Shown in pieces: positions 1 through 16,156 of a stretch of DNA of 17,169 bases. This stretch comes from an uncultured Lachnospiraceae bacterium (GTDB taxonomy: Bacteria; Bacillota; Clostridia; Lachnospirales; Lachnospiraceae). Position 1 is the first letter of the stretch; every line of letters starts with the position of its first letter. A program made the position numbers and the translations under genes. The DNA is taken from the NCBI GenBank assembly GCA_947594085.1, contig CANQEB010000021.1, positions 1-17,169 on the forward strand. The letters are read 5' to 3'. Below the pieces are notes generated by a model. The model was not told the origin of the DNA and made no database searches. It worked only from the letters and a program-made list of their open reading frames with translations.

Positions 1-868
1 GTGAAATGTCTTCAACACCACGACGAAGCTCAATAACGCCGTCCTTATCTTTACCGCCATCCTCGGCGTAACGAATCATAACTCGCTTCGGGTCTACCAT
101 CTCAGGAAACTCTGGCGTCCACCAAGTCTTTCCTTTATCCGGCGTAAATTCTTGAACAGAGCCTATCTCATATTTATGGTGTTGAACCCAACTACGAACG
201 TCCTTCTCTGTCTCTCCCTCTTTTGGCTTTCGCGCCAAAACAGTCATGGTCGTCTTATTACCCTGTCCAAATTGCTGTTCAAGCTGGACCCACGTTTTAA
301 CGTAACCTTCTCGCACAAGGATCGCCATAGCAACTTTTTTTGTATAATCAGGGACGCCCATAATATCTTCAACACCACTAGACACGTCTAGTGTACCGTT
401 TCCTTCATCAATTTTTTTACGAAGGAAGTCAGCAGTTTTTTGATATCGATCCTGGCGATCGGCAATGGAATCCTTTAAATATGATCGAACAGAGCTCTCA
501 TTCATACCAAGACGACGACCAGTTTCGGAAGCATTACCATGACATTCATCATAAACCTTCAAAACCCTAGCTCGAACCGCTTTGCGGGCCTCGGAATTTG
601 CGATAGAAATCTCAGCCCGAAGGTCAGTAGACGTGTACCAAACAGGTTCTCCAGTTTTCTTATCAATACCCTTTTGCCCAAGTAACGCTTTTGCAATTTC
701 AGATTCGGTGAGCCCCTTTTTCTTCAAAGAATCCACTTCGCTGAGGAAATCGAATTGATGCTGTGCAGGATTCTCACCAGAACCCCAAGCGTAGCGGCCA
801 GAACCTCGTCCCGGCGGATTCTCGTCATGGCCGACACCAGAATGATAAATATAATATTCAGTATCCAT
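1..868 (-). CDS. Large phage protein of unknown function, N-terminal part (3' end beyond window)
   Basis: Open from an ATG at 868 to the window edge, about 289 codons without a stop. An AAGGAGG site stands about 9 bases before the ATG, and the start overlaps the end of the upstream nuclease gene by 11 bases. The N-terminus (MDTEYYIYHSG) leads into a Gly/Pro/Arg-rich stretch (NPPGRGSGRYAWGSGENP). Near residues 125-132 the segment GRRLGMNESSVRSYL looks like a helix-turn-helix, and an earlier segment (GLTESEIAKALLG) has a similar look. The visible C-terminal part contains VMIRYAEDGG and GVIELRRG. I recall similar large proteins in gut phage genomes without an assigned function, so I give none. 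Placement after two nucleases suggests a DNA-related or late-early role, which is inference. A copy of the dispersed ATTATATTY motif lies in codons 5-8. Confidence 0.8.
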   Translation of the reverse strand, partial: MDTEYYIYHSGVGHDENPPGRGSGRYAWGSGENPAQHQFDFLSEVDSLKKKGLTESEIAKALLGQKGIDKKTGEPVWYTSTDLRAEISIANSEARKAVRARVLKVYDECHGNASETGRRLGMNESSVRSYLKDSIADRQDRYQKTADFLRKKIDEGNGTLDVSSGVEDIMGVPDYTKKVAMAILVREGYVKTWVQLEQQFGQGNKTTMTVLARKPKEGETEKDVRSWVQHHKYEIGSVQEFTPDKGKTWWTPEFPEMVDPKRVMIRYAEDGGKDKDGVIELRRGVEDIS

Positions 869-1430
869 TATGTTCGCCCTCCTTAAATTCTGTGATTAGA
901 CCGTCAAACCAAACGATCTTGTCCATTACCGGAACAATATCAGTTGCGTCAAAAGTCTCAATTCGAACGTCATCGTTCTGGTAAATGCGAGCTTCACAGC
1001 CTTTCAAGGATGCTGGGCGAATGTCATACTCTAAACAAAAAAGTGCAGAATAAATTAAAAGTTGATCGAAACTAGCTTCAGAAACTCCTGTCTTCAAATC
1101 GTGAACACGTAAAAAATTCTGCCGAAAGCTAATAGCATCTGCAGTACCATAACAATTCGGCGAAAAATATAATACTTGTTCCGGCTGCATTCGATAACCG
1201 ATCGCATCATTGACGTACATGTTCAACGTCAGATTACGCTTCGGAAGTTTTTGGCCCAACATAATACACTGGGCAGCAAAAGCATGAAGCTGTGTTCCTC
1301 GCACAGCCGCCAGATGATTTGCATAAACATCCAAAATTTTATCTTGATCGTAACGAAGCCAATGATATGCAGAAGGGCTAAGAAAGGCGTGACTTCCTGC
1401 AGCGACGTTTGTATGCTCGTTCCATCTCAT
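858..1430 (-). CDS. RecB/Cas4-like PD-(D/E)XK nuclease
   Basis: Protein of 190 aa. Motifs fit the PD-(D/E)XK exonuclease fold of RecB/Cas4-type phage nucleases: an N-terminal LSPSAYHWLRY element, GTQLHAF with His49, GTADA with Asp98, then HDLKTG with Asp111 and Lys113 as the D-x-K catalytic pair, followed by Gln123 and Tyr127 (QLLIY). In this fold the acidic residues bind metal and the Lys helps cleave DNA. Start chosen at the ATG preceded by AAGGAGGAGG. The gene overlaps the upstream VRR-NUC gene by 53 bases in another frame and the downstream gene by 11. It probably trims or recombines phage DNA together with the neighbouring helicase and SSB-like protein. Fold assignment is fairly firm; substrate is unknown. 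Confidence 0.78.
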   Translation of the reverse strand: MRWNEHTNVAAGSHAFLSPSAYHWLRYDQDKILDVYANHLAAVRGTQLHAFAAQCIMLGQKLPKRNLTLNMYVNDAIGYRMQPEQVLYFSPNCYGTADAISFRQNFLRVHDLKTGVSEASFDQLLIYSALFCLEYDIRPASLKGCEARIYQNDDVRIETFDATDIVPVMDKIVWFDGLITEFKEGEHNGY

Positions 1431-1698
1431 TGAGAACCTCCTCCTTGTTCTCTGGATAGATTGTTGCTGAGAAACTCATGTTCCCAGCTTTATTCAGATG
1501 ATATTCCTGATTAGGCCGATACGAAGCATCGGCTGACCGTTTCGTCTCTAAAACCGCCCACCAACTTCCTGGCATCAAAACGGTAATATCTGGAAAGCCT
1601 TGGATATACCCAGAGTCATTCTTCAGAATATAAGCTTCGGGAAATCGGTCTTTTAATTCCTTAATAAGATCCCGTTGAAAATCTCTTTCAAGGGGCAT
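1378..1698 (-). CDS. VRR-NUC domain nuclease
   Basis: Protein of 106 aa, the usual size for stand-alone phage VRR-NUC proteins. Visible motifs: FQRDLIKELK at the N-terminus, KNDSGYIQGFPD with Gly34-x-Pro36-Asp37, then the ETK triad with Glu51 and Lys53, followed by RPNQ and a C-terminal IYPENKEEVLNEME. These are the core of the VRR-NUC branch of PD-(D/E)XK nucleases, which in phages sit beside SNF2-like helicases and are thought to cut branched DNA. Start is the ATG after AGGAGGTGCTTCA. It lies downstream of the XRE gene, with a 90-base gap, and its last 17 codons are also read in another frame as the start of the next nuclease. Confidence 0.85.
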   Translation of the reverse strand: MPLERDFQRDLIKELKDRFPEAYILKNDSGYIQGFPDITVLMPGSWWAVLETKRSADASYRPNQEYHLNKAGNMSFSATIYPENKEEVLNEMERAYKRRCRKSRLS

Positions 1699-1787
1699 TG
1701 AAGCACCTCCTCAAAAATATATAATGAAAAGGCACATATGCGCTTCTCTCTCTATTATAAGCGATGTTTACGACGCGAATCCGAAGA

Positions 1788-2042
1788 TTACGAAATATAG
1801 GCCCTAGGAACGCTTTCCTGAAGTTTCACCCAGGCCATCGTCATAAGTTCCAATGGAACTTCATAATAATCGGCTAACTTCTCAAGACGCTCCTGACTAA
1901 TCTCGCCGCAACGCTCATAAGCAGCAAGTGTTCCTCTTGGAATTCCAGTGTCCTTTGAAACCTGTTTCTGCGTAAGATTGTGAAGAATACGAAGCTTCTT
2001 CAAATTCTTTGCAATCTGCATCTGTTCAACAATAGTAGCCAT
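1788..2042 (-). CDS. XRE-family helix-turn-helix regulator
   Basis: An 84-aa protein that is almost entirely an HTH_3/Cro-CI type domain. Helices cover about residues 11-66: KNLKKLRILHNLTQKQVSKD leads into the recognition segment TGIPRGTLAAYERCG, then ISQERLEKLADYYEV. There is no extra oligomerisation domain. The site TTAGGAGG lies directly before it and the spacer to the ATG is itself a copy of the dispersed motif ATTATATTT. The stop of the helicase gene is 14 bases upstream, so the two are co-transcribed. An XRE gene between helicase and VRR-NUC is a common phage arrangement. It may regulate the replication operon, but no operator for it is identifiable here. Confidence 0.9.
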   Translation of the reverse strand: MATIVEQMQIAKNLKKLRILHNLTQKQVSKDTGIPRGTLAAYERCGEISQERLEKLADYYEVPLELMTMAWVKLQESVPRAYIS

Positions 2043-2055
2043 AAATATAATCCTC

Positions 2056-3264
2056 CTAACTACTTTTCGACATCATCTTGTTATAGAACGACCGTTCATT
2101 AAAATTATGCTTCCGACTGAGAGCTCTAGCAATCGCCAAATCGATGGGTGCAGATGATCGAAACTTATAATAATACAAATCCTTGTAAGTCGTGTTCATT
2201 CGATCAATTCTTCCCATCGCTTGTTCTGTCATTCGATACGAATAACTCTGACTATAAAAAATCATGACATTTGTTGTTGTACAATTCCACCCTTCGCAAC
2301 CAGCGGAATATTGAACCAAATAAACCCAACGAGTCCCAGTTGGAAGATCCTCATGCTTTTCGCCATTCCATTCGGCGAACGGGATGGCCCATCCAAGACA
2401 AAGTTGTCGAAGAGCTTCTAACTCGTAAGTAAAATTGTAGAATATAATGACTCGATTATTGAGCATTAACAACTCTGACGTCTTCTCAATTCTAGATAAA
2501 TCAGAATTCACAACTTTACGAAGAAGATAGAACAGCTTTCCAGTCTCAGGAATCGGACAGTCGTCATACGGATCCCATCGATCTCGAAATACTTTCTTAT
2601 ACAGATCCTTGTCATAGTCAACAATGACTGTCTCAATGTGACGCTCTGTCACTTTTGGGCTCTCCATCGTGACAAGAATTTTTCGTCGATGAGCTTCAAG
2701 GATTCGTTCATCAAAATATCTTTCGATCTTCGGATAACTCGTGTGAATGCTAAAGATACAATGTCGATTTGTAAAGTCTGTCTTATTCCGATAGAATCCA
2801 TTTGCAATGAAAACTGGAATATAATCACTCCACTGATCGCCAGGAGTCGCCGACAACAAAATCCAATTATTCTTTCTCGTGATCTTTAAAAATGCTTTTG
2901 TCCATGCGCCATAGCCTACTACTCGTTGCTCATCAAATATAAAGAAAGCGTCTGAGACGTCAACATACTTCTTGATGTTATTCCAACTATCCACAACAGG
3001 AGTAAGAGAAAACATAGCAGCTTCTTTTAACCACTCGTTTGTATCTCTCTTCTTTGCTGTTGTGATAATGTACAGATCCTTCGGGTCCTTCATTGGAATA
3101 TAATCACCCTGTCCATTGATTCGTAAGCTTCCCTTACATTCTCGAGTAAAGTAGTAGGCTAACGCGGTACGTGATTTACCAGAACCGACTCCACCGCATA
3201 AGATGGAGCCGGTCTTCAGCTTCTTTATGACCTCAAGCTGATAATCGGCCAACTCTACTGTCAT
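2056..3264 (-). CDS. SNF2-like / DEAD-box phage helicase (SF2)
   Basis: Protein of 402 aa with both RecA-like lobes of an SF2 ATPase. Lobe 1: a Q-motif-like LADYQ at the N-terminus, Walker A GGVGSGKS (Lys30, Ser31), Walker B FIFDEQR with Asp111-Glu112 (DEQR in place of DEAH), and motif III LLSATPGD at 137-142. Lobe 2: VIIFYNF, then QYSAGCEGWN, and motif VI QAMGRIDR at 348-355 with the arginine fingers. Length and motifs match the short helicase found widely beside VRR-NUC genes in Firmicute phages. It probably translocates on or remodels DNA during replication or recombination. Start is the ATG after AGGAGGTGTCTTT. The stop codon TAG lies inside the ribosome binding site of the XRE gene. Two copies of ATTATATTC occur in the reading frame, both giving the residues DYIP. 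Confidence 0.92.
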   Translation of the reverse strand: MTVELADYQLEVIKKLKTGSILCGGVGSGKSRTALAYYFTRECKGSLRINGQGDYIPMKDPKDLYIITTAKKRDTNEWLKEAAMFSLTPVVDSWNNIKKYVDVSDAFFIFDEQRVVGYGAWTKAFLKITRKNNWILLSATPGDQWSDYIPVFIANGFYRNKTDFTNRHCIFSIHTSYPKIERYFDERILEAHRRKILVTMESPKVTERHIETVIVDYDKDLYKKVFRDRWDPYDDCPIPETGKLFYLLRKVVNSDLSRIEKTSELLMLNNRVIIFYNFTYELEALRQLCLGWAIPFAEWNGEKHEDLPTGTRWVYLVQYSAGCEGWNCTTTNVMIFYSQSYSYRMTEQAMGRIDRMNTTYKDLYYYKFRSSAPIDLAIARALSRKHNFNERSFYNKMMSKSS

Positions 3265-3288
3265 AAAGACACCTCCTGATAAATATAT

Positions 3289-3456
3289 TTACTCGACTTT
3301 CTCCTTAATATATGGATGACGCTGAATAGCTATCGGACCAGCATCATTAAAGTACTGTTCAAAATAGCCTCGAACAAAACAGATTGCAAGATCCAAATCC
3401 ATTTCAGAAGCGGCTACTTTACCGTCAATCAAAATATCATACTTATCCGGGATCAT
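3289..3456 (-). CDS. Small hypothetical protein (55 aa)
   Basis: Short gene between the SSB-like and helicase genes. The ATG follows GAGGAGTAAGAA, so its ribosome binding site overlaps the stop codon of the SSB-like gene. It starts MIPDKYDILIDGKVAASEMD and ends RHPYIKEKVE, with a central amphipathic segment containing CFVRGYFEQYF. The frame is open, the spacing to both neighbours is tight (3 bases upstream, 24 downstream), and the next gene has its own AGGAGG. I do not recognise the family. Position implies co-expression with the replication proteins, perhaps as an accessory factor, which is inference only. Confidence 0.75.
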   Translation of the reverse strand: MIPDKYDILIDGKVAASEMDLDLAICFVRGYFEQYFNDAGPIAIQRHPYIKEKVE

Positions 3457-3459
3457 TTC

Positions 3460-4050
3460 TTACTCCTCAAACGGCAGTTCATCATCCTCCGACATCGGAC
3501 TCTCGTCCGTCATCCGAATGTCACGATACTTCCTCTCCAGAGGATCATCCACAATCGTCACATACAGAGCATCCAGATAACAAGAAATCCCGCCAGGACG
3601 ATTCGGACGATCAGGGTAACGAGAAGGACGAATATTCATATCTACATGCATAATAGCACGAGATCGAGCAAGAATATCAATCAGCCCAATCGTGTCTTCA
3701 GTCAGCTTAGTCTGGACCATCTTCTCCTTATCATCAGGATCGTCAGGATCCACTTTGATCAGCCAAACCTTAGGCGGAATACGAGAGTTAAAGTTCACCT
3801 TCACCTTGATCCAGTCAGTAGGAGTGGAATCAGGATCGTCCGCATAAGCGGGAAGGGTCTTCACACGGAAGCCATCCTCACGAAGCTGTTCCGCGAGATC
3901 AGGATCGACAACCGCACCAAAGTTACGATCACCTTCGGCATTGAAGTCAGTCTTTCGACCGGAAAAGTTCGGATAGATCAGTCGAGTACCACTGAGACGC
4001 AGCAGTCCAAATCCATTCTTTCCATTGTAGGCAGAATTGATGTTTTCCAT
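3460..4050 (-). CDS. Single-stranded DNA-binding protein-like
   Basis: Protein of 196 aa with features of phage SSB proteins. Beta-rich segments compatible with an OB fold run from about residue 15 to 170 (TRLIYPNFSG, DRNFGAVVD, DWIKVKVNF, PKVWLIK, YLDALYVTIVDD), and a strongly acidic C-terminal tail ends DDELPFEE, like the partner-binding tip of bacterial SSBs. It directly follows the polymerase fusion gene, with 46 bases between, as expected for a protein that coats the single strand made by the helicase. Start is the ATG after AAAGGAACAAAAACA. The gap before it holds one ATTATATTT motif. I recall similar proteins next to phage replication genes. Function is likely but not proven by motif alone. 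Confidence 0.72.
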   Translation of the reverse strand: MENINSAYNGKNGFGLLRLSGTRLIYPNFSGRKTDFNAEGDRNFGAVVDPDLAEQLREDGFRVKTLPAYADDPDSTPTDWIKVKVNFNSRIPPKVWLIKVDPDDPDDKEKMVQTKLTEDTIGLIDILARSRAIMHVDMNIRPSRYPDRPNRPGGISCYLDALYVTIVDDPLERKYRDIRMTDESPMSEDDELPFEE

Positions 4051-4096
4051 TGTTTTTGTTCCTTTCTTGTTTTAAAATATAATTTTTATGTCAACC

Positions 4097-7000
4097 TCAA
4101 GCGGCGAACCACTCAAAGTCTCCATACGCAGAGATAGTGTCGACTGCTTCGTCGACGAGTCGATTCCAATAAGATCGATCAATTTGATCCACAAGCCCGA
4201 GGGTCCTAACAGTTTCTGATTCAAGCCATCGATAAACTCCTGAATCTCCTGCTTTTGTTGCTTTTCCGGGACGTTTTGTTCCGACAGCCGCTGCCATCTT
4301 CCCATTATTCTCCCTAAGCAATACCCCGCCCCCGGCGCCGTCAACAATCGGACAGAACTGCCCGACTCGTCCGACGAACTGATAATTATGTTCATCTTCA
4401 CCTAGTCCTTCATTCATATCCAAATATAATGCTGAAGTCACTTGCTTTGTCTCGCACAAGTCCTCAAATGCTATGGGTTCATGACTAAACAACGTCTTAA
4501 ACACGTACGGAACCTGAAACTGTGTGCCCGTTGCCGTCCAATGGCCATCTGCAGCATCCTTTGCCACATACACAGCGTCGTTCACAAGACACAGTTTTTC
4601 ATAGGTCGCCTCATGCTCGAATTCATATCCGTACTGCTTGGCATAATCCATACAGAAGGATATAATTTCAGGAGTAGCATCAGCAATCTTAATTGAATCA
4701 GTCTTGATGTGAACGACCGTAAATCCGCGATCCTGCACTTCGTGCTTTAAATTGATCATGAACAATGCGCCATACTTAGCCACAATATTATCCGCATTCC
4801 GAGGGTCTCGCAGCTTATTAGGGAACTTGGCAGCAGTCAAACCATACACAGAGTTAATGGCTGTCTTCAGAGCCGTCGACAACTTCTTCGCTTGATCCTT
4901 ATCGTCCAAATACTTCGCAAGCTTTCCGTCGAACAGCTTCTTAGCCGCATCGTAATCCCCATGCTTGATAAATATCCGTGCATTGACTAGGTCCTCAAAC
5001 CGCTTTGTGTACGTATCACCGAACAAATTCAGCCGAATCAGACTATGCGGATGCATCGAAGCAACATCAAGCAATGCCACATTTGTGTGAATTCCAGGAG
5101 TTGCGAACACATAGCCACCTTCTCCAGGATCCTCACCGCGGTAAATCGACTTAGCCGACACAATCTTCGTTCCTTCATTATACTCCTCCTTCGGGATTCC
5201 ATAAGAAGAATATCTATAACCGGGAAAGATCGTCTCGAGCTTCGTGTACACAAACTGATCCTGCGGGTGCCTATTCGTTCCAACTATGATCCTCGTGGTA
5301 TGCTGGTTCGTTGTATCATTTACCGTCAGTCCAGACAAATCAGCCAGAATCTCTCGAGCCATCCAATCCTGCTGGTTGGCATTCCACACGGCTTCCGTTG
5401 CGATCACATCGTTTGTACAGTACTCGGCAACGAGTTCCCAATTCTCTTTTGGCACTTCCTGATCCCATGGTAAGCCAAGCTCCTGATGATGGATGCCAAG
5501 CTTGATCTCCCACTTCTTCAGACTCATCTTATTGCCGGCCGACAAGAAATCATAAATATCAGTGTAAGACAGATCAAATGCATCGTTGAACAGTGCACTA
5601 TCCTTTGACTTCTTATCCTCGCTCCCGATGATTCGCTGACTCAACCGATACAACTGCAATTCTGTGTATCCCATCATCCGTCCATAGAGAATATGATTAT
5701 CGTAACGCCGATTATTGAATCCAACAAGCCGACGCTTGATCAACCCCTTAATATCTTCCTCCGACGGATTGATCATCTTCACGCATTTCTTACCTTCTCC
5801 AGCATCCTTCCATACGACAATAAACAGATTAGGAAACACCTCAACGTCGAAGAACGTCAGCGGTGCTTTCTCATCTACATACCGAGGCGCTTCTGTCGTA
5901 TCGGCACCCCCAATGTTTTCTTCTACATCTTTCGAACAAAAATGCATCTTCGAAACGATCCGTATGCACGTCTGAGACTGGTTACTACTACTCATCGCGA
6001 ACGTCATTACAGACGTCGCCATATCCCGCACATCGTAACTCAGATCAGATGCATACGCATCTTCCAAAATCTTAAATATCATGTCGATCGACGGTTTTGT
6101 ATTCGGCCAAATCTCTCGGTTCAGATTCCGAAGAATCTGCTCACGGAGACTTTTCTCTGATCGAATACGTCGATCTTTCAACACTAGCTTTTCCTCCTTT
6201 AATGGCAATCCACTGGAGATCGTAGCGATGGGCAATCCGTTACACTTTGTAACCATTCGCCGCAACGAACTATTCCCAGTAAACACCTTAATCTCAATGT
6301 CAGGAGCAAATATCCGACTAAGCTTCATTGCATCTCCTTCATAAAAGTAATGCAAGTGAATCCCCGCACCACTCTTACTCAACTCAGCATAAGTGGGCGG
6401 CCACTTCGAAGCTTCTCTCAAATTTGCCTCCTGGTCTTTTTCTCCTTTCGAATTTTTAATATCGAAGTCAATGACGATCAAATTCCTTGGAAGTTTCACA
6501 TAATGAAGTTTTGTTGTGTCTAGATCGGCCAGAACACTCTCACACTCGATCCACTTTCGAATTGGCTTGCCGTCGTCCGTGGCATATTGTGCTTTGTTCT
6601 CCGAGAATATAATGTCAAATCCGGATTTCTTCTTATTAAACTTCAGCCACGACTCTGCTTCCTGCGCTTCCTCCACTTTTTCTGTCTCTTTCTTTTCTAC
6701 ATAATCGATCTTCTCCTTCTTAAATCCGACATAAACATTTCTGGCATTAGCTTTACGATCAACCACATCATCAAAGTAATTTCGTAGCTCGTCTCGAAAT
6801 TGGCGCTTATTCAATGGATAATTAATCTTTGCATCCTCAACCCACTCTTTGTACCGAAGCCAAGCAGAAGTGAGTGTAACCTCATCTGGGTGATCAACAA
6901 CAAAAAAGTCGTAGTTATCCTCAATAAAGTTATAGAAATCATTTGTAACAGACATCATTGACGTGGGAATATAATTGTCGTAATAGCCAATACCAAGCTC

Positions 7001-9811: not shown

Positions 9812-9851
9812 AATAATACACCTCCTTATTAAAGGACAGGAATATCACGCG

Positions 9852-9882
9852 AATAAAAGAAAGGTGCCATGTTAGGCACCCT
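9852..9882 (-). terminator. Terminator with stop codon of the 9872-10162 gene in its loop
   Basis: Minus-strand GGTGCC / GGCACC around loop TAACAT, extendable with wobble pairs on the outside, followed by TTTCTTTTATT. The TAA stop codon opens the loop, as in the two neighbouring terminators. Confidence 0.72.
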
Positions 9883-10162: not shown

Positions 10163-10203
10163 GATAAAGACCTCCTTTCATTGTAAGCTTCGATTTCTAG
10201 ACG

Positions 10204-10233
10204 AAAAAAAGAAGAGGCCATGTTAAGCCTCTT
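10204..10233 (-). terminator. Terminator with stop codon of the 10223-10546 gene in its loop
   Basis: Minus-strand AAGAGGC / GCCTCTT (7 perfect pairs) around loop TTAACATG, then C and seven T. The TAA stop lies in the loop. The loop sequence TAACAT is shared with the next two terminators downstream. Confidence 0.78.
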
Positions 10234-10546
10234 GCGGAATCATCCATAGCAGATACAAACAATCTGCTACGAGATCCGACTTGCTTCCATGCCTCTCCTT
10301 CATCCAGAAATAGTACGTCCTGCAAATATCCATGTTGGCCCAGCATCTAAAGGCCTCTTTCTCTGTCTCAAACTCGACAATTTCACTCAGATTGGTACAT
10401 AGTTCCCCATAACCATCCCAGAATTCATCCCAGTGGTCCTCAAACCACATGTAATCCTGTTCAGATTGGGTCTTGTAAACCCATCCATCGAACCTGTAAG
10501 TGAATATCAGTCCTTTTACTAAGCTAACGATGCCAAATTTATGCAT
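10223..10546 (-). CDS. Hypothetical aromatic-rich protein (107 aa)
   Basis: Start chosen at the ATG at 10546 (MHKFGIVSLV), 8 bases after AAGGAGG; a GTG three codons earlier would sit too close to it. The protein is unusually rich in Trp, Tyr and Phe (YRFDGWVYKTQ, WFEDHWDEFWDGYGE, RTYYFWMKERHG) and acidic. The leader contains CCTTC-ATTATAAC-GAAGG, a short hairpin that would pair with part of the ribosome binding site, so translation might be modulated. No known domain. First of three adjacent genes with a stop-codon-straddling terminator. Confidence 0.75.
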   Translation of the reverse strand: MHKFGIVSLVKGLIFTYRFDGWVYKTQSEQDYMWFEDHWDEFWDGYGELCTNLSEIVEFETEKEAFRCWANMDICRTYYFWMKERHGSKSDLVADCLYLLWMIPQEA

Positions 10547-10589
10547 ATAGCACACCTCCTTCGTTATAATGAAGGATTTCTGTGCGATT

Positions 10590-10922
10590 CTAATGTTCTA
10601 TAATATCCACCATCCCACCGTGCTTCTCGATTAACTGGTCCACGATTTCGACTGGGACCTGACCATAAACAGTATGCGTCGGCTCACTTGGCGTCTCAGC
10701 ATACTCCAAAATAAGATCGTCCACCATGCTAGGATATCCGAGCTCGACTGTCTCGTATCGAGGTGCGTCGTTCACTCTAGGTGTGCAGTAGTGCCCATAA
10801 CTCGCCTGAATAGACACTTCGAATCCATCCTCGCATTTTACTCCCGGGCGGATTCTAAAATATCCAGATTGATCCCTTGAGCGAGTCAGTTTCAGAAACA
10901 AATTGGTGTTAAATGGCTGCAT
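10590..10922 (-). CDS. Conserved phage hypothetical protein (110 aa)
   Basis: Start at the ATG at 10922 (MQPFNTNLFLKL) after AAAGGAGAAAAGACA, 14 bases inside the end of the upstream gene. The protein has alternating short strands (YFRIRPGVKCEDGFEVSIQA, then YETVELGYPS) and a C-terminal segment TVYGQVPVEIVDQLIEKHGG. I recall proteins with this GFEVSIQA and VYGxVPxEIVxxxIxKHGG pattern in many Firmicute phages, all without known function. No membrane segment or catalytic motif. It is probably a small globular protein expressed early with its neighbours. Confidence 0.82.
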   Translation of the reverse strand: MQPFNTNLFLKLTRSRDQSGYFRIRPGVKCEDGFEVSIQASYGHYCTPRVNDAPRYETVELGYPSMVDDLILEYAETPSEPTHTVYGQVPVEIVDQLIEKHGGMVDIIEH

Positions 10923-11163
10923 TGTCTTTTCTCCTTTCATAGATTGTGTAATATCTTTTGACATTCTTCATATTCAGACAGACTTTCGCAATTTTGCGTA
11001 TATGATCGGGTTTATTATCTCGCTCCGCGTCTAGAAACGCACCATAATCAGACAAAAAGGTGTCCGGATCGTCAAGATTTACTTCTTTTGCCCATTTTTT
11101 GAATTGCTTGAGAAAGCGGTCAATTCTCAATTTCAAAATTGGCCCAACGAAAAAATTATTCAT
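10909..11163 (-). CDS. Hypothetical helical protein (84 aa)
   Basis: An 84-aa basic protein, MNNFFVGPILKL at the start, then RIDRFLKQFKKWAKEVNLDD, then IRKIAKVCLNMKNVKRYYTI, mainly helical by eye. The start is the ATG after AAAGGAGAAAAAGAC. A GATATTTT element lies just before the binding site. The gene overlaps the next one by 14 bases, so translation is probably coupled. No known motif, no signal peptide. Function unknown. Confidence 0.75.
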   Translation of the reverse strand: MNNFFVGPILKLRIDRFLKQFKKWAKEVNLDDPDTFLSDYGAFLDAERDNKPDHIRKIAKVCLNMKNVKRYYTIYERRKDNAAI

Positions 11164-11184
11164 GTCTTTTTCTCCTTTAAAATA

Positions 11185-11553
11185 TCATTCAATTGCCGTA
11201 TCCGGATCGAGAATTTTCGACAGATCTACCAAATCGACGAATTTGATCTTTAATTTATGATCGAACGGTATATATTCGTCCCCGTTTGTAGTCAGAAATA
11301 GGTCAAGATCCGGGAATTTCTCTTTATCGTCCCACACCCAGCCAAGAGTCAATGCCTCTCTTGACACGGGCAATTCGAGGTAACTCAAAATATCAATAAG
11401 TATTACAAACCCTCGTCGAAGCAATCGGCCTCGAAAATCGTTTCGAACATTGTTTAGAATGGCGATGCCCCATGCGCATCCCATGTGAGAATCCATAAAC
11501 CACACGTTTGAATTCCGATCGACGCATCTTATGCAAGTTTTTGTCTTTTTCAT
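11185..11553 (-). CDS. Stand-alone relative of the DUF6353 C-terminal module (copy 1)
   Basis: Start at the ATG at 11553 (MKKTKTCIRCVDRNSN), which follows GGAGGAAGTC; upstream codons in frame lack a binding site. A CIRC pair lies at the N-terminus. The core, ILNNVRNDFRGRLLRRGFVI, then LELPVSREALTLGWVWDD and KLKIKFVDL, aligns by eye with the neighbouring 11585-11944 protein and with the C-terminal part of the DUF6353-like proteins at 13018 and 16348 (pattern N-x(10)-G-x-V-x-L-x-(E/D), then L-x-(L/F)-P, then GW). Unlike those, it has no membrane segment. Biochemical role unknown. Confidence 0.75.
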   Translation of the reverse strand: MKKTKTCIRCVDRNSNVWFMDSHMGCAWGIAILNNVRNDFRGRLLRRGFVILIDILSYLELPVSREALTLGWVWDDKEKFPDLDLFLTTNGDEYIPFDHKLKIKFVDLVDLSKILDPDTAIE

Positions 11554-11563
11554 GACTTCCTCC

Positions 11564-11599
11564 AAAAATATAAGAAGAGGAGCCCTATGCGAGCCCCTC
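11564..11599 (-). terminator. Terminator overlapping the 3' end of the 11585-11944 gene
   Basis: Minus-strand GAGGGGCTC / GGGCTCCTC, 9 pairs with two G-U, loop GCATA, then TTCTTATATTTTT. The TAG stop codon starts in the loop and ends in the 3' arm. The ribosome binding site of the next gene follows at once. Confidence 0.7.
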
Positions 11600-11944
11600 C
11601 TCCGTTTTGTACAGGCCACTTATGTCCTTCAGATTATGGAAAGTCACCTCGAACCATCCTCCCGGAAGATAAGACCAGGTCACCAGATCTTCCTTCCTCA
11701 GTTTCTCATCGAATTCCCATCCGAGAGTCAATCCCTCGTAAGACTGCCGAAGATGCATCCATTTGAGAGCCTCATTCAAGGTCTCAACGCCATGAACCTC
11801 CAACGAGCGCATAAGGCATTTCCTCATGTTCCGAAGTTCGTACTCGATATCATCCGAGCCTTTAGAAGACATCCAATACTTCCAGTAAGATTCTTCCGGT
11901 CCAACTTTCCGAGTGACTTCCATAGTATTTTTGTTAATAGACAT
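11585..11944 (-). CDS. Stand-alone relative of the DUF6353 C-terminal module (copy 2)
   Basis: Start at the ATG at 11944 (MSINKNTMEVTRK), 7 bases after AGGAAGGT; a GTG at 11953 is the alternative. 119 aa. Core segments ELRNMRKCLMRSLEVHG, ETLNEALKWMHLRQSYEG, LTLGWEFDE and WFEVTFHNLKDIS match the next gene in order and spacing (LTLGW is identical), so the two are probably tandem duplicates. The TLNE and LGW positions also match FLNEVYDALGFP and LVGW in the DUF6353-like protein at 13018. No catalytic signature. The last codons form one arm of a terminator. Confidence 0.75.
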   Translation of the reverse strand: MSINKNTMEVTRKVGPEESYWKYWMSSKGSDDIEYELRNMRKCLMRSLEVHGVETLNEALKWMHLRQSYEGLTLGWEFDEKLRKEDLVTWSYLPGGWFEVTFHNLKDISGLYKTEEGLA

Positions 11945-11965
11945 TATAGTCACCTTCCTTTCACT

Positions 11966-12181
11966 CTAGGAATGGATTTCACCGCGAATATAATCCTCCA
12001 AAATCCTAGAGATCTGCGGACAGCTATCATGGTTCCATTTCTCGCAGACTTTGATATGCTTACAGCTAATCGCCTTCACATTGAATCCGTTTTGCCAAAG
12101 AAGAGACTCAATATCCGGATCAAAGTCCCAGCATTCCAAACAGCACGGTTTCAAATCGATTATGTGCCTATACTCACTCAT
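11966..12181 (-). CDS. Cysteine-rich small protein (71 aa), possible zinc binder
   Basis: Start at the ATG at 12181 (MSEYRHIIDLKP), 8 bases inside the upstream gene, with CGAGGAGACG before it. It carries six cysteines in two clusters: CCLEC near residue 13, then CKHIKVC followed by HDSC around residues 41-54, with a nearby histidine. Such spacing could bind a metal, but it matches no zinc-finger type I can name. The C-terminus ILEDYIRGEIHS contains a copy of the dispersed ATTATATTC motif, about 40 bases before the next start codon. Function unknown. Confidence 0.72.
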   Translation of the reverse strand: MSEYRHIIDLKPCCLECWDFDPDIESLLWQNGFNVKAISCKHIKVCEKWNHDSCPQISRILEDYIRGEIHS

Positions 12182-12881
12182 CAGGATGCGTCTCCTCATA
12201 CGAAGCATCAATGCGCATGATCTCATAACACGTATCGAGTTCGTCGTTCATGACATAGATAACCTTCTCGTCCGAGTCCATAAACCCATACTTCCTCAGA
12301 CAATCCCCGACAAGCCGCTCGACGTCGCTGATGCGCTCTTCCGTATCCACATCGGCAAGGACGTTGTCCTCATCGTAGAATTGCAGCTCCACCATGTCGA
12401 TGCCAGCCGGGAGTTCCGCCGCCTTGTCGGCCGAGATTAGATGTGGCTTCCGCCCTTTGGACGCTTCATGGCGGGAGATGATTTCGGCAAGCTCGGGGTC
12501 TTCGATTTCGGAATCGTCGTCTTCGGAATCCTCGGTGTCCTCACTGTCTTGGGTGCTTTCGTTATCATGGGATGGTTCCTCCTTTTTTACTGTGCCGTAC
12601 ATAGCGGCGTAATTTGTTCCCTGCCGATTACGCTCGAGACGCTCTCGAATTTCAGCCGCTTTCTGATCGCTCCATTTGACAGGGTTGATCTCTTCTTCCT
12701 GCTCCTCGGAAACTTCTTCCTCATCCTTGGGAACGCCGTAGACGAGCTGCTTCATCTCATTGACTGTCTCCTCAGCATATTCGCGATAGACCTTCTCGTA
12801 ATGGACTTTCGCGCCAAAGAAGCCACCGAGAGCGCCGATGACGGCGCCTCCGATGAAGAATATAATATTAGTGTGTTTCAT
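12174..12881 (-). CDS. Membrane-anchored acidic phage protein (235 aa)
   Basis: An N-terminal membrane helix (residues 5-24, glycine-rich, NIIFFIGGAVIGALGGFFGA) is followed by a Lys/Tyr/Glu helix, an acidic linker (EEEVSEEQEEE), a conserved-looking KWSDQKAAEIRERLERNRQG at 69-88, and a long Asp/Glu/Ser tract at 103-130. The globular C-terminus has HLISADKAAELP, VELQFYDEDNVLADVDTEE and VIYVMNDELDTCYEIMR. I recall phage proteins with this C-terminal pattern next to DUF6353 genes, all of unknown function. The start ATG overlaps the stop of a 47-aa membrane protein whose last codons supply the AAAAGGAGG site. The body probably faces the cytoplasm. Confidence 0.82.
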   Translation of the reverse strand: MKHTNIIFFIGGAVIGALGGFFGAKVHYEKVYREYAEETVNEMKQLVYGVPKDEEEVSEEQEEEINPVKWSDQKAAEIRERLERNRQGTNYAAMYGTVKKEEPSHDNESTQDSEDTEDSEDDDSEIEDPELAEIISRHEASKGRKPHLISADKAAELPAGIDMVELQFYDEDNVLADVDTEERISDVERLVGDCLRKYGFMDSDEKVIYVMNDELDTCYEIMRIDASYEETHPDE

Positions 12882-13021
12882 TTGTCTTTTTTCCTCCTTT
12901 TAAATTCTTTCAATGGATCGTCCGAGAAGAAGTCGACTAGTGTGTAAATAACGTCAAACATGAGACCGATTATAGCACAGCCAACCACCGACAGAAGAAT
13001 ATAAAATGCAATGTCACTCAT
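12878..13021 (-). CDS. Small single-pass membrane protein (47 aa)
   Basis: ATG at 13021 overlaps the stop of the DUF6353-like gene (ATGA), and the stop at 12878 overlaps the next ATG, so it is tightly nested in the operon. Residues 3-25 are hydrophobic (DIAFYILLSVVGCAIIGLMF), then VIYTLVDFFSDDP, and the tail is basic (KEFKRRKKDK). This is the pattern of a single-pass protein with a cytoplasmic C-terminus. The tail codons double as the ribosome binding site of the downstream gene. No family recognised. It may partner the flanking membrane proteins, which is inference from position. Confidence 0.75.
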   Translation of the reverse strand: MSDIAFYILLSVVGCAIIGLMFDVIYTLVDFFSDDPLKEFKRRKKDK

Positions 13022-14025
13022 ATCAGATCAATAATTACTCCATCGACATTGAAGTCGAGAAGTACGGCATTCTCTTGCTGGTTGATAAACCGTCTCACCT
13101 GAGGATTGCTGATGTCACGCAGACCGAACGAAATATAATTACTCGGTTCAGACGGAGGATTCTGTACCCAGCCGACCAAGCCTCCCTCAGACGTCATGGG
13201 GAACCCGAGTGCATCATACACCTCATTCAGGAACACGTAACCACGCGTGTTGAGGATCGTGTTGAAGTAGTTCTCCTGCGCCTTCAGGAACTGCATGTTG
13301 AAGAACGGGTCGTCATACCAATTTGGATTGGGCACGCCGTCACGAATATAATGCTCAAATACACGAGCATACTGAGACGGCTCCCCACCGTCGAGGGTCA
13401 GAATATCCTCCTTGGTCTTCTTTTTCTTACCCTTCTCGTCCGTGGTCTCTCCAACGAGCTGCTCCTTCTTCCAGCCGTAGCGGAAGCGTTCATCGGCCTC
13501 ATCTCCGAGCTCCTCCCGCACTCTCTGACGATATGTCTCAAATGCTGCCATAGCGCCGTTATAGGCTCCCAGAAGGCCCGTATAGCGCTTCTTTTCCACG
13601 CTGTAGGATCCCACGATGCAAGCCCCAGAAGCCAGCCCAAGGCTCACAGAGGGGCCGTAGAGGCAAATATAATCCTTGGCAATGGTTAGATAAGCCTTCG
13701 TCTTTTCTTTCTGCACGTCCTTTACAGAAATAGCATGGCCTGTGATCTCATCGTCGTCAAGAGTCGTAGGCATAGTCGTGCCAATGTAATCTTCCATCTC
13801 GTGAATATCATCCATCATGTCCTCGTGGGATGCTACAACACCTGGAAGCTTCGTCGTCGCCTTGCAAGCCAAAATTACGGTCCCCACAAATCCACTGATC
13901 CCGCTCACAAGCAGAATCTCCGGAGAGTGCTTCTGGACCCGCAACTTACTTCTTCCAAGAAATCTGGAAAGCTTTACAGGAATTTTAACCTGGGGAATTT
14001 TTACGTTAGGCAGTTTCATTTTCAT
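13018..14025 (-). CDS. DUF6353-like membrane protein (335 aa)
   Basis: An N-terminal basic repeat (LPNVKIPQVKIPVKL) precedes KHSPEILLVSGISGFVGTVI (33-52), a membrane helix with the SPEIL entry typical of DUF6353 proteins. A second hydrophobic segment covers about 119-141 (YGPSVSLGLASGACIVGS). After a charged region (residues about 170-215) the C-terminal module has NYFNTILNTRGYVFLNEVYD, ALGFPMT, GLVGWV, and near the end AVLLDFNVDG. Two helices plus a soluble C-terminal module suggest a membrane-attached protein. A shorter paralog lies at 16348-17169. The start is the ATG after AAAGGAGCTCAATTCA. The family is common in Firmicute phages and has no known function. Confidence 0.83.
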   Translation of the reverse strand: MKMKLPNVKIPQVKIPVKLSRFLGRSKLRVQKHSPEILLVSGISGFVGTVILACKATTKLPGVVASHEDMMDDIHEMEDYIGTTMPTTLDDDEITGHAISVKDVQKEKTKAYLTIAKDYICLYGPSVSLGLASGACIVGSYSVEKKRYTGLLGAYNGAMAAFETYRQRVREELGDEADERFRYGWKKEQLVGETTDEKGKKKKTKEDILTLDGGEPSQYARVFEHYIRDGVPNPNWYDDPFFNMQFLKAQENYFNTILNTRGYVFLNEVYDALGFPMTSEGGLVGWVQNPPSEPSNYISFGLRDISNPQVRRFINQQENAVLLDFNVDGVIIDLI

Positions 14026-14048
14026 TGAATTGAGCTCCTTTCAATATT

Positions 14049-14600
14049 TTATTCCGCAGAGGGTGGATAAGAGTCCATCACTACTTCTGGATCTTCCTTC
14101 ACCCAGTCGATCGGCTCCAACGGCTGATTCGCCATTGCCTCCGCTTCCCGTTCGATGTTCTCCCACTGATTACAACCTGTAATCGCCTCGTTACTCTTTG
14201 TTTTCAATTCGCGAAAACCCTCGTTAAACCCTTTGGCTTCTGCGATCTTCATTTCTTGAATGGCCTCTTCAAGAGAAACCCCGCCGAATTCATCCTTGGG
14301 ATCATTTACACGATAGATCTTTTTGAATGCGTCGATTAGACTATCGCCATCCTTAAGATCCTTCCGAACCTGACTGTAAATCTGCTTTTTAGGCCGATTC
14401 CGATAAGGTTTTGTGCCTAGATTCCAGTTCGTTTCGTCATAATACAGAAAATATAGTACCAAACCGGTCTCCAGTTCTATCCTGAGCATTCTCGCACCGA
14501 TCTTGTTGCGGGTTTTGATCGGAACAGAACCCAAAGCCAATCCATAGAGACTCCAGAATTTGTCGAACAATTCCCGTTCTGTCATTTTCTCAAACGCCAT
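14049..14600 (-). CDS. Hypothetical phage protein (183 aa)
   Basis: Start at the ATG at 14600 (MAFEKMTERELFDKF), 7 bases after AAGGAGG. A GTG at 14645 would add 15 residues but reads through a palindrome and has no binding site. The N-terminal half contains RNKIGARMLRIELETGLVLY and FLYYDETNWNLGTKPYRNRP, which looks globular; the middle is helical (SLEEAIQEMKIAEAKGFNEG); the C-terminus is acidic and proline-containing. No known domain. The gene is bracketed by two near-identical GATTACA palindromes, one just upstream of its binding site and one inside it. Confidence 0.75.
   Translation of the reverse strand: MAFEKMTERELFDKFWSLYGLALGSVPIKTRNKIGARMLRIELETGLVLYFLYYDETNWNLGTKPYRNRPKKQIYSQVRKDLKDGDSLIDAFKKIYRVNDPKDEFGGVSLEEAIQEMKIAEAKGFNEGFRELKTKSNEAITGCNQWENIEREAEAMANQPLEPIDWVKEDPEVVMDSYPPSAE
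14167..14185. repeat. GATTACA inverted repeat, intragenic copy
   Basis: GATTACA-ACC-TGTAATC (14168-14184), a 7-base perfect inverted repeat with a 3-base spacer. It matches the copy at 14626-14644 at 17 of 19 positions. It lies within the coding region of the 14049-14600 gene (residues AITGCNQ). Confidence 0.7.
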
Positions 14601-14625
14601 TTTTGATTCCTCCTTGTAAATATAA

Positions 14626-14644
14626 TGATTACATCCTGTAATCA
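14626..14644. repeat. GATTACA inverted repeat, intergenic copy
   Basis: TGATTACA-TCC-TGTAATCA, an 8-base perfect inverted repeat with a 3-base spacer, one base after the stop of the 14646-15305 gene and shortly upstream of the next ribosome binding site. The length and symmetry fit a dimeric repressor operator. One edge base is shared with an ATTATATTT motif at 14618-14626. Confidence 0.7.
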
Positions 14645-14645
14645 C

Positions 14646-15305
14646 TCAGTCGTCCAATGGTTCTGCATCATCCACATCAATCAGCCAGCCACGTCCCACA
14701 TGACTGATCCCGATCTGCTCAGGACTCCTCCAGCCGTATGCTGTGTCAGTATATACCGACGACTGATCCACCAATTCCAATAGATCCGCCACAGAAGCAG
14801 ACCCGTACGTCTTAATTCGATCGTGAAGGCTCGCCACGACATTACGAGCATCGTTCCGATCGCTCAGAACGATTTCTCGGTAGTCCGTATCGATCCCTCG
14901 ACGAGAATATCTTTTCTCATCTCTGTCACGACGGTCACGATCCCTAGGAGATCGATAGGATGCTGAGTAGTCGGTCGAAACATTGCTGTAACTCCTACGA
15001 CCTCTGCTACGCCGTCTCCCGCTCACCTGACCGAATAGAAGCATCTCTCCCAGGTCGAGGATCGTGTCTTTGATAAATGGAACAATAAGTTCGTTTACCA
15101 AATATCCACCAACATCCTCGACATCGTCTGCAATGAACAGAGACCGGATCCGCTTCCCAAGAGTAGGCTTTGTACTCACGACTCTTCCCTGTTTTACCAC
15201 CGACTCGAGTTTTGGGGCTGTCTTTTTGTCTGTCGGTTGCTCCGTAGGTTTCTTATTCGGCGGCAACATTGACCTGTCCACTTTGATCATTTCATGTTCT
15301 GCCAT
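14646..15305 (-). CDS. Phage protein with arginine-rich linker (219 aa)
   Basis: Three parts. Residues 1-50 are polar and proline/lysine-rich. Residues 51-92 contain a conserved-looking helical block (LGKRIRSLFI, then VGGYLVNELIVPFIKDTILD, LGEMLLFG). Residues 97-137 are very rich in Arg, Ser, Asp and Tyr (RRRSRGRRSYSN, later RDRDRRDRDEKRYSRRG), likely disordered and able to bind nucleic acid. The C-terminus (ARNVVASLHDRIKTYGSASV, then ADLLELV and YGWRSPEQIG) resembles a module I recall in other Firmicute phage proteins of unknown role. The start is the ATG after AAGGAGGAATAAAT, directly downstream of a terminator. It may be a packaging-, DNA- or RNA-associated protein, which is inference. Confidence 0.8.
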   Translation of the reverse strand: MAEHEMIKVDRSMLPPNKKPTEQPTDKKTAPKLESVVKQGRVVSTKPTLGKRIRSLFIADDVEDVGGYLVNELIVPFIKDTILDLGEMLLFGQVSGRRRSRGRRSYSNVSTDYSASYRSPRDRDRRDRDEKRYSRRGIDTDYREIVLSDRNDARNVVASLHDRIKTYGSASVADLLELVDQSSVYTDTAYGWRSPEQIGISHVGRGWLIDVDDAEPLDD

Positions 15306-15319
15306 ATTTATTCCTCCTT

Positions 15320-15355
15320 AAAAATATAAGGAGCGTTGTTTAAAACGCCCCTTAT
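15320..15355 (-). terminator. Intrinsic terminator after the 15368-15703 gene
   Basis: Minus-strand ATAAGGGGCG / CGCTCCTTAT, 10 pairs with one G-U, a 10-base loop, then ATTTTT. It begins 12 bases after the stop codon. The ribosome binding site of the next gene starts right after the T-run. Confidence 0.78.
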
Positions 15356-15367
15356 TTGGACTTAGTT

Positions 15368-15703
15368 TCAATCCTCTTCTTCGGACTCCTCGTCCGGCTG
15401 GATTTCGTGAATCACGCCCTCCTGCACCTTGGCGCCCTTTACCTTTTTCGCCTTCTTCCTCCAGAACTGGTAGAACTTCTCCCGCTCCGGGGTAGCGATG
15501 CCTTTCTTCTCACAGTGCTTGTCATACACCTTCTGAGAGATCTTTGTCCCTCCGAAGATCAGACCTACTGCGGCAGCACCTACACCCAGAATGGTACCCC
15601 ATCCAGTGCTGGATTCCACAACAGGCGGAAGTTCGGTGATATCGGTCACCTCAGCGCCCAGATCCTCCATCGTATCCATCACGACTTCCTTCTGCTCGTC
15701 CAT
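15368..15703 (-). CDS. Single-pass membrane protein (111 aa)
   Basis: The acidic N-terminus (MDEQKEVVMDTMEDLGAEVTD) is followed by a small-residue-rich membrane helix at about 34-52 (GWGTILGVGAAAVGLIFGG), then a basic region (SQKVYDKHCEKKG, FWRKKAKKVKGAKV) and an acidic end (DEESEEED). The positive region after the helix predicts a cytoplasmic C-terminus. The start is the ATG after AGGAGGATTTAAAA, with TTATATTT immediately before the binding site. The gene has its own terminator. No family name known to me. It is one of at least five membrane proteins in this part of the window. Confidence 0.8.
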   Translation of the reverse strand: MDEQKEVVMDTMEDLGAEVTDITELPPVVESSTGWGTILGVGAAAVGLIFGGTKISQKVYDKHCEKKGIATPEREKFYQFWRKKAKKVKGAKVQEGVIHEIQPDEESEEED

Positions 15704-15733
15704 TTTTAAATCCTCCTAAATATAAAGTATTTT

Positions 15734-15753
15734 TGAAACTAGGTTTCATTATA
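15734..15753 (-). promoter_or_regulatory. Possible -10 box with adjoining inverted repeat
   Basis: In the 70-base gap before the 15368-15703 gene, the minus strand has TATAAT (15753-15748) followed directly by TGAAAC-CTA-GTTTCA (15748-15734), a 6-base perfect inverted repeat where transcription would start. No good -35 box is visible, so a promoter with an overlapping operator is only a possibility. Confidence 0.3.
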
Positions 15754-15773
15754 GTGCTGGAATTTTGTGCGAA

Positions 15774-15971
15774 TTAGTGGTCTGTCGGAAGCTTAGTAAG
15801 AATCTCCTGCAGAGTCACACGAAGTTCGAGAAGCTGTGCCCCATCTAGGGTGACCATTTTAGTCGAAAGAGGCTCCACTTCATTTTTCACGACAAGTTGA
15901 GCTGTGTTTTCTCCGTCTACATACACAACATCCAAACTGGATGCTATAGACCAAGTCGTAATTTTAGTCAT
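15774..15971 (-). CDS. Small hypothetical protein (65 aa)
   Basis: The start ATG at 15971 overlaps the stop of the upstream gene (ATGA), with TTTGGGAGGACAGAA as binding site. The protein is strand-rich at first (MTKITTWSIASSLDVVYVDG, then AQLVVKNEVEPLSTKMVTLD) and ends in a helix (AQLLELRVTLQEILTKL). It is mildly acidic, with no cysteine and no membrane segment. No family recognised. Last gene of a run of three short overlapping genes following the DUF6353-like gene. Confidence 0.75.
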   Translation of the reverse strand: MTKITTWSIASSLDVVYVDGENTAQLVVKNEVEPLSTKMVTLDGAQLLELRVTLQEILTKLPTDH

Positions 15972-16156
15972 TTCTGTCCTCCCAAAAACCAAAGTGCGAA
16001 GGTCGCTCTAGAATATAATTCTCTTCCAGAGAGTTCGAACGCCTCTCCGAACAGATAATACCTTCGCAGAACTTCATCGCGCCATGCATCAGAAGAGCCG
16101 AAGAATCTCGTTTTAAGAAATTCCCCGACCCAATTCTCGAATGTCGTTTTAATCAT
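15968..16156 (-). CDS. Small hypothetical protein (62 aa), possible paralog of its upstream neighbour
   Basis: Start at the ATG at 16156 (MIKTTFENWVGEF), overlapping the upstream stop by 8 bases with the same AATGAYTAR layout as the pair before it; AGAGGTTGTCACAGA provides the binding site. The C-terminal part, RRYYLFGEAFELSGRELYSR then ATFALWFL, resembles IYFEWGERNKIEEWKLLTQ then IYFFTWI of the upstream gene in spacing of aromatic and Gly-Glu residues, so a tandem duplication is possible. No known domain. Contains an ATTATATTC motif about 40 bases before the next start. Confidence 0.72.
   Translation of the reverse strand: MIKTTFENWVGEFLKTRFFGSSDAWRDEVLRRYYLFGEAFELSGRELYSRATFALWFLGGQK

Follow-up and report, generated by a model that had tools for sequence, protein, structure and literature searches.

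Why should one short word stand twenty times on one strand of a stretch of phage genes and never on the other? The question is raised by 17,169 nucleotides (nt) of an uncultured Lachnospiraceae bacterium (assembly GCA_947594085.1, contig CANQEB010000021.1, positions 1 to 17,169 of the forward strand), the whole of which is called the window here. A first-pass annotation of the window had reported dispersed copies of the 9-mer RAATATAAT in one orientation, antisense to all genes. We found that this 9-mer is too narrow and that the shared word is BATATTY (B = C, G or T; Y = C or T). BATATTY is a selected, strand-polar word, used far above chance wherever the proteins of a family of presumed gut and soil phages allow it.

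The word in the window and its range across phages

The recount of the window gave the reported figure: AATATAAT had 20 copies on the plus strand, with starts from 848 to 16012 and an A or G before each, and none on the other strand. The 28 TATAAT counted on the plus strand also agreed with the annotation, and the minus strand held 5 where about 4 had been given. Under an order-2 Markov model, 0.99 copies of the coding-strand 8-mer ATTATATT were expected against the 20 observed. The gene set consisted of 30 open reading frames (ORFs) chosen by hand from the ORF list, some of them overlapping, all on the minus strand and with phage gene content. Within these ORFs ATTATATTY was found 16 times, compared with 1.98 ± 1.26 in 1000 codon-preserving shuffles (maximum 6), so that the shuffle proposed in the annotation did not reproduce about 20 copies. 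All three reading frames were used (4, 8 and 4 copies), which bears out the claim that protein sequence does not explain the intragenic signal, and 4 further copies did not lie wholly within a coding sequence (CDS). The features of the array are as follows.

477..16950, minus: array of 64 BATATTY sites on the coding strand, the 20 RAATATAAT being its TATATTY sub-form
847..855, minus: RAATATAAT copy (ATTATATTY on the coding strand)
1165..1173, minus: RAATATAAT copy
2043..2051, minus: RAATATAAT copy with GGAGG on one side and an ATG start on the other
2440..2448, minus: RAATATAAT copy
2817..2825, minus: RAATATAAT copy at the DYIPV site of the helicase
3096..3104, minus: RAATATAAT copy
4075..4083, minus: RAATATAAT copy, intergenic in the gene set used
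4422..4430, minus: RAATATAAT copy
6605..6613, minus: RAATATAAT copy
6967..6975, minus: RAATATAAT copy
7649..7657, minus: RAATATAAT copy
8351..8359, minus: RAATATAAT copy
9473..9481, minus: RAATATAAT copy directly upstream of a Shine-Dalgarno-like AGGAGG
11986..11994, minus: RAATATAAT copy
12858..12866, minus: RAATATAAT copy
13131..13139, minus: RAATATAAT copy
13344..13352, minus: RAATATAAT copy
13665..13673, minus: RAATATAAT copy
14618..14626, minus: RAATATAAT copy directly upstream of a Shine-Dalgarno-like AGGAGG
16011..16019, minus: RAATATAAT copy

The top 7-mers of the window were TTATATT, TATATTT, ATTATAT and GATATTT, with 0, 2, 0 and 0 reversed copies; TTATATT was counted 30 times on the coding strand against 2.96 expected, and GATATTT 20 times against 3.20. 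For BATATTY the coding strand gave 64 sites (13.6 expected) and the other strand 9 (13.0 expected), and 51 of the 61 KATATTY sites lay within the CDS set used. Across the 2.4 Mb metagenome-assembled genome (MAG) of which the window is one contig, AATATAAT was present 96 times forward and 70 times reverse, and subtraction of the window's 20 copies left 76 against 70, contig orientations being arbitrary.

The enrichment sought by the annotation in related phages was present, as the rightward excess of BATATTY over Markov expectation was at least 2-fold in 28 of 31 genomes or loci, the three exceptions being Arthrobacter phage Mudcat and Lactococcus phages 1706 and P162. An FP_oengus-like set was made up of Faecalibacterium phage FP_oengus, the window and IMG/VR loci, several of which are closely related to one another. 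In all sets, ORFs containing N were excluded. Among 20 IMG/VR loci found through the polymerase, the same words led the over-representation list in most, and L009 and L019, which lie outside the 31-genome comparison, showed no clear enrichment. The highest number in one contig, up to 302 sites, was reached in the 95 kb contig G007, with constant polarity throughout. The word also recurred in diverged phages of up to 61% GC that carry the same polymerase/helicase together with a YonO-like RNA polymerase. In Gordonia phage Secretariat 98 sites were counted against 7.8 expected, with none on the other strand, and reverse sites were likewise absent from Streptomyces phage Scap1 (24 against 1.0), Curtobacterium phage Serenabean (29 against 1.4) and Rhodococcus phage ReqiPepy6, or Pepy6 (140 against 14.3). 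Microbacterium phage Camille (67 against 6.8), Streptomyces phage Maya (94 against 4.8) and Bifidobacterium phage BitterVaud1 (156 against 37.2) had 1, 3 and 14 sites on the other strand. In the crAss-like control cr1_1 BATATTY was not enriched, and its top word reached a z of 6.9 with weak strand bias.

A wider sample was provided by 160 RNA polymerase loci, reduced to 158 by omission of L141 and L228 (broken or cut match), of which 113 had at least 4 kb upstream. An upstream excess of at least 1.5-fold was found in 105 of these 113 loci and of at least 2-fold in 93. Summed over every upstream segment of at least 1.5 kb, the forward count was 3277 against 1230 expected and the reverse count 1076 against 1398. 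No description of the BATATTY word was found in the open-access literature at title and abstract level, a search that left subscription papers mostly outside.

Selection, strand, spacing and gene class

Compared with codon-preserving shuffles, the rightward word reached z values of 6.1 to 24.6 in 25 motif-bearing genomes or loci. When 17 genomes or loci were pooled and all 4096 hexamers were ranked against shuffles preserving every protein and the codon counts, the top five were ATATTT (z 40), GATATT (34), ATATTC (32), TATATT (24) and CATATT (22). Usage was then expressed as a realised fraction, the sites used divided by the positions at which the encoded residues permit the word, with the expectation taken from codon usage. 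In ten genomes or loci of the FP_oengus-like set, non-structural genes had 785 of 1130 permitted positions realised (expected 22.6%) and structural genes 245 of 582 (expected 21.6%), the limits between early and late genes being set by annotation in named phages and by eye, helped by motif density, in IMG/VR contigs. The corresponding values for seven actinophages were 298 of 595 (expected 5.3%) and 147 of 345 (expected 5.0%), and ATA codons served sites in phages of 59-61% GC. Where aligned tripeptides were identical and permitted the word, the probability of a site in member B of a pair was 0.83 if member A had one and 0.44 if it had none; control words gave odds ratios of 3.5 to 19 from small counts, so the result is read as high usage more than position-specific conservation. 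The DYIPV helicase site was common to the window and G001 and recurred in the Maya/Pepy6 and Secretariat/window comparisons.

The opposite orientation was avoided in the FP_oengus-like set, where 119 of 823 permitted positions were realised in non-structural genes (expected 27.9%) and 78 of 707 in structural genes (expected 26.6%). The ratios to expectation were 0.52 and 0.42, compared with 0.82-1.07 for four AT-rich control words. Reverse sites were equally rare at every distance from a sense site (11-18%). Among the roles suggested in the annotation was that of sites for a DNA-binding or methylating protein; such a protein, if indifferent to polarity, leaves this avoidance unexplained. In the actinophages the avoidance was not specific to the word, because other AT-rich words were equally depleted.

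The strand that the word follows was revealed by the integrase gene, which points leftward in FP_oengus-type phages; it is annotated in FP_oengus and has homologues in G003 and G007. After near-copy removal 54 of 80 integrase loci were left, still related to one another. On their own strand 21 of 158 permitted positions were realised (expected 16.6%), and on the rightward strand 251 of 479 (expected 36.2%), a realised fraction that becomes 62% if distinct residue contexts are averaged. Rightward genes have similar fractions (14.5% and 69.5%), and eight control words lay at 0.59 to 1.09 of expectation. Within-gene shuffles gave 177.5 ± 9.5 rightward and 26.2 ± 4.2 own-strand sites, statistics that overstate independence because the genes are related. 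Most integrase sites were Lys-Tyr or Glu-Tyr codon pairs. Only five other leftward genes were found, with 2 own-strand and 4 rightward sites, too few to inform. In the integrases the word follows the rightward strand of the genome and not the coding strand of the gene, and the annotation's view of it as a property of each gene's coding strand was given up. For the same reason an mRNA signal belonging to each gene was rejected.

Sites were also spaced. The realised fraction, taken over the non-structural genes of 13 FP_oengus-like genomes or loci, rose with the distance to the nearest other site, from 4 of 23 (8-15 nt, 17%) through 20 of 53 (15-25 nt), 89 of 164 (25-55 nt, 54%) and 142 of 202 (55-80 nt) to 82-84% between 80 and 400 nt (286 of 342 at 80-130, 222 of 266 at 130-220 and 126 of 153 at 220-400 nt), and was 30 of 47 beyond 400 nt. 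No comparable rise was seen for four control words, whose short-distance counts were small. Five actinophages behaved alike, with 2 of 29 positions realised below 25 nt and 43 of 60 at 80-100 nt. Among the 103 of the 113 RNA polymerase loci that remained after near-copy removal, 159 gaps of 8-55 nt were counted against 355 expected; the four control words gave 36 to 110 such gaps against 21 to 84 expected, none of them falling below expectation. Gaps of 80-140 nt were in excess (487 against 358), and since three of four controls showed the same, no preferred distance is shown. The mean gap was 241 and 373 nt in the two phage sets.

Gene class mattered in the FP_oengus-like set. On the annotated map of FP_oengus 40 of 84 permitted positions were realised in non-structural genes and 5 of 43 in structural genes; after the RNA polymerase gene the form T[TG]ATATT[TC] thinned out, and of its 50 rightward sites 5 lay beyond 32 kb. 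In G007 the structural block had 54 of 119 positions realised against 67 of 100 and 71 of 93 in the other parts. The structural genes located later agreed with the limits drawn for G002, G004, G007 and G011, the terminases of G012 and G015 fell in the part counted as early, and 0-22 kb of G003 was assigned to no class.

A second polar word, TCAAAATG, had the opposite distribution. In the structural genes of the FP_oengus-like set 79 of 138 permitted positions carried it (expected 9.8%), compared with 8 of 78 in other genes (expected 9.9%); the actinophage values were 14 of 49 (expected 3.2%) and 2 of 34 (expected 2.9%). G007 carried 68 forward copies, 56 of them in the structural block, and no reverse copy. 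The word often overlapped a start codon or Shine-Dalgarno sequence, and the next base was a purine in 126 of 139 cases. None was found on the coding strand of the window, in which no structural genes were recognised. As a separate observation, several diverged phages, some of them GC-rich, have TCAAAATG inside the terminase (DTIKMEL by eye) and in a tail-region gene, within a SLSKWE-like stretch (the structural region of G007; L021/L024; L059, L063, L064 and L071).

Candidate readers and rival explanations

Nine ORFs of the window were scanned against family libraries. The following minus-strand genes include the two candidate readers of the word.

5..811, minus: YonO-like single-chain RNA polymerase, N-terminal part, truncated at the end of the contig, with 37% identity to FP_oengus gp55 (residues 27-282 of 924); candidate reader
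858..1430, minus: exonuclease (phrog_3953)
1378..1698, minus: endonuclease (phrog_93)
2056..3264, minus: DNA helicase (family-library match)
3460..4050, minus: single-strand annealing or single-stranded DNA-binding protein (family-library match)
4097..8029, minus: DNA polymerase with N-terminal D5/SF3-type helicase region (family-library match); second candidate reader

The DNA polymerase has 1310 residues, and its best named match was FP_oengus (54%). The family-library scan also gave two DUF6353 proteins. A small minus-strand ORF at 1788-2042 may encode a Cro/CI-type helix-turn-helix protein, which it resembles by eye. When the MAG was searched with the RNA polymerase of the window, the window's own contig was the sole match and the remainder of the phage was not found.

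Since the hosts belong to both Bacillota and Actinomycetota, a host protein is an unlikely reader. Proteins that the phages share are likely ones, for instance RNA polymerase, DNA polymerase/helicase and helicase. At 481 sites in the GC-rich phages information did not extend further than one base to each side of the word, so the reader would see a compact element; weak preferences at -3 and +9 to +13 in the FP_oengus-like set may in the latter case come from Shine-Dalgarno sequences. The antisense -10 elements proposed in the annotation did not survive: TATAAT is a by-product of one sub-form, and the strongly enriched GATATT and CATATT forms contain none. On this ground, and with no second element around the 481 sites, a sigma-70 antisense promoter was rejected.

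We infer that the reader is phage-encoded and that it is most probably the RNA polymerase. The reading that we favour, at somewhat short of an even chance, is that the sites are loading, initiation or re-initiation points of the phage transcription system, most probably of the YonO-like polymerase. A phage-encoded machine would read BATATTY as a strand-polar address along the rightward strand; sites nearer than about one polymerase footprint would obstruct one another, and backward-pointing sites would cost antisense transcription. TCAAAATG would be the counterpart for structural genes. Transcription is preferred because two words split the genome by gene class and because backward sites are avoided in the FP_oengus-like set. 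The fuller form of this idea is a two-word, strand-polar, spacing-controlled address code, with BATATTY mainly for non-structural genes (in the FP_oengus-like set), TCAAAATG for structural genes and polymerase starts every few hundred bases; it is possible, and we hold it with more doubt. YonO itself transcribes the late genes of SPbeta (PMC5467207).

Several results weigh against this transcriptional reading. No second promoter element or initiator base was found around the 481 sites of the GC-rich phages, and some sites stand between the Shine-Dalgarno sequence and the start codon, an odd spot for a promoter of that gene. The word is not present wherever a YonO-like polymerase occurs: 8 of the 113 RNA polymerase loci were below 1.5-fold, Arthrobacter phage Mudcat and phages 1706 and P162 share the polymerase family yet reach z of only 3.5, -2.5 and 2.6, and no enrichment was found in 40 kb of SPbeta. 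At high coverage the RNA polymerase had 247 records and the DNA polymerase 252 (overlap not computed), similar numbers that do not separate the two candidates. On the rightward strand of the integrases only the T-form was enriched (TATATT rank 1 and ATATTT rank 3 of 4096), with no enrichment of GATATT, CATATT or ATATTC at hexamer level, and no rightward consensus promoter stood consistently beside the integrase. In Scap1 the word was nearly confined to structural genes (16 of 45 against 2 of 52), and Maya, Pepy6 and BitterVaud1 carried it in both classes, and a division into early and late therefore applies to no more than part of the family.

In Mudcat (L060) BATATTY was in excess on both strands, 40 against 22.6 (1.8-fold) and 61 against 25.5; the reverse excess (2.4-fold) was the highest among the 31 genomes or loci. 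A replacement polar word was sought in ten little-enriched genomes or loci and gave weak candidates only (TTGACC in 1706, TCTGAAG in Mudcat). Gene content was compared with 420 seed proteins of six genomes against 20 genomes, in which structural genes were partly judged because the stretches of Mudcat, Pepy6 and Maya were incomplete. No gene family was present in all 17 motif-bearing genomes yet missing from Mudcat, 1706 and P162. All 20 had both the DNA polymerase/helicase and the helicase.

The presence of the polymerase/helicase in all 20 favours the most serious rival, in which the sites prime discontinuous DNA synthesis: the rightward strand would be the lagging-strand template of a fork crossing rightward, a leftward primer 5'-RAAUAUV would start at Y, and close sites would be wasted. 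Priming also accounts for a polarity that is indifferent to integrase orientation and constant over the 95 kb of G007, for the lack of flanking information in GC-rich phages and for the rarity of short gaps. It is kept as a serious rival because the polarity ignores integrase orientation and Y could template a purine start. However, usage falls in the structural genes of the FP_oengus-like set, TCAAAATG would need an explanation of its own, known primase sites are about 3 nt long, and the same replication protein occurs in Mudcat, 1706 and P162, which show no clear enrichment. No preferred fragment length is shown, and because the 80-140 nt excess is not word-specific, priming is rated lower; we consider it rather improbable, at roughly one chance in five by our judgement.

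Less probable again is a signal that acts as RNA: a phage protein would bind or cut the nascent rightward transcript at intervals of a few hundred nt, as in RegB-like decay, RNA coating or antitermination. Intragenic sites in all frames, a peak 20-30 nt before start codons and the difference between gene classes in the FP_oengus-like set would fit it. The word on the non-coding strand of integrase genes does not, and, pairing apart, nothing obvious at the RNA level would cause the complement to be avoided. Antagonism of Rho was rejected. No match to the Rho RNA-binding domain was found in 14 of 42 host genomes searched, some of them incomplete MAGs: the hosts of L152, L155-L157, L159, L174, L189, L203, L204 and five others, including Faecalibacterium and several Oscillospiraceae. 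Phages of such hosts (e.g., L155, L157, L174, L189 and L204) were strongly enriched, and Lactococcus lactis, the control, has a Rho-domain match yet its phages 1706 and P162 lack clear enrichment; Rho is therefore not the reader.

A polarity signal for recombination or DNA translocation (like Chi or KOPS, read by the phage exonuclease or helicase), or a set of one-strand nick sites, is quite unlikely. It agrees with polarity by genome strand and with the helicase common to all 20 genomes. Neither Chi nor KOPS would be expected to lack gaps under about 55 nt, and the nick version predicts that reverse sites are avoided near sense sites, which were equally rare at all distances.

We give very little credence to lysogenic repressor sites of the L5 stoperator type. 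Stoperators are asymmetric and their orientation follows transcription (PMC9283540), and that of BATATTY matches the transcription of lytic genes. No integrase is annotated, however, in the 50 kb stretches of Secretariat, Camille, Pepy6, Maya and Serenabean or in the whole Scap1 record, all of which have the word, and BATATTY is shorter, far more frequent, intragenic and common to phages of Bacillota and actinobacteria. Mutational or compositional bias without function, which the AT-only core and the depleted AT-rich controls in actinophages might suggest, is hardly credible given the shuffles, the flat AT-rich controls in the FP_oengus-like set, the scarce short gaps and the ATA-codon sites in phages of 59-61% GC.

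Three observations on the phage records may be added. The YonO-like polymerase is annotated as structural in one record of Lactococcus phage 1706 (EU081845, 52136-55063) and by similarity in ReqiPepy6 (L069:46746-49460), an annotation that hints at a virion polymerase. Repeated GACCCCTA (L063, L069) and TATAATGA (L063, L069, L071) in Gordonia, Rhodococcus and Streptomyces phages resemble conserved host-type early promoters. The FP_oengus record has 28 identical bases at both ends (L021:1-28 and 58364-58391) and may thus be circular with an untrimmed overlap.

Significance and comparison with known systems

The word fills about 70% of the positions that non-structural proteins allow in the FP_oengus-like set. 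Synonymous sites are thus strongly constrained across the genome, and this would have to be taken into account in annotation, codon-usage studies and phylogeny. If the words were the recognition sequence of related phage polymerases, the question of what YonO recognises would become directly testable on culturable phages; if they served for priming, they would form a sequence code of unusual length for discontinuous replication.

YonO of SPbeta belongs to the same class of single-chain RNA polymerase as the candidate reader. PMC5467207 reports one late operon with one start site and gives the recognition sequence as undetermined; this single start differs from a dense array, as does the stretch of SPbeta without BATATTY enrichment. 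Closer in arrangement are the stoperators of mycobacteriophage L5, asymmetric sites scattered through a phage genome and oriented with transcription, whose reversal abolishes repression (PMC9283540). They are 13-mers with more than twenty copies per genome, placed in promoters and short gaps of temperate phages. BATATTY, in contrast, is a 7-mer with 64 sites in 17 kb, lies within genes and occurs also in phages without an annotated integrase.

Strand polarity held over a genome is shared with Chi and KOPS, which are short, over-represented, strand-polar words of bacterial chromosomes and are host-specific. For these, to our knowledge, neither a minimum spacing of tens of nt nor a second word for a gene class has been described. 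The RegB sites of T4 are a short word of early transcripts, often at translation starts, and BATATTY differs from them in standing on the antisense strand of integrase genes. We know of no dense intragenic array among the short late promoters of phiKZ type; their very short recognition by a phage polymerase of the same fold superfamily is nevertheless a precedent for the short recognition proposed for BATATTY.

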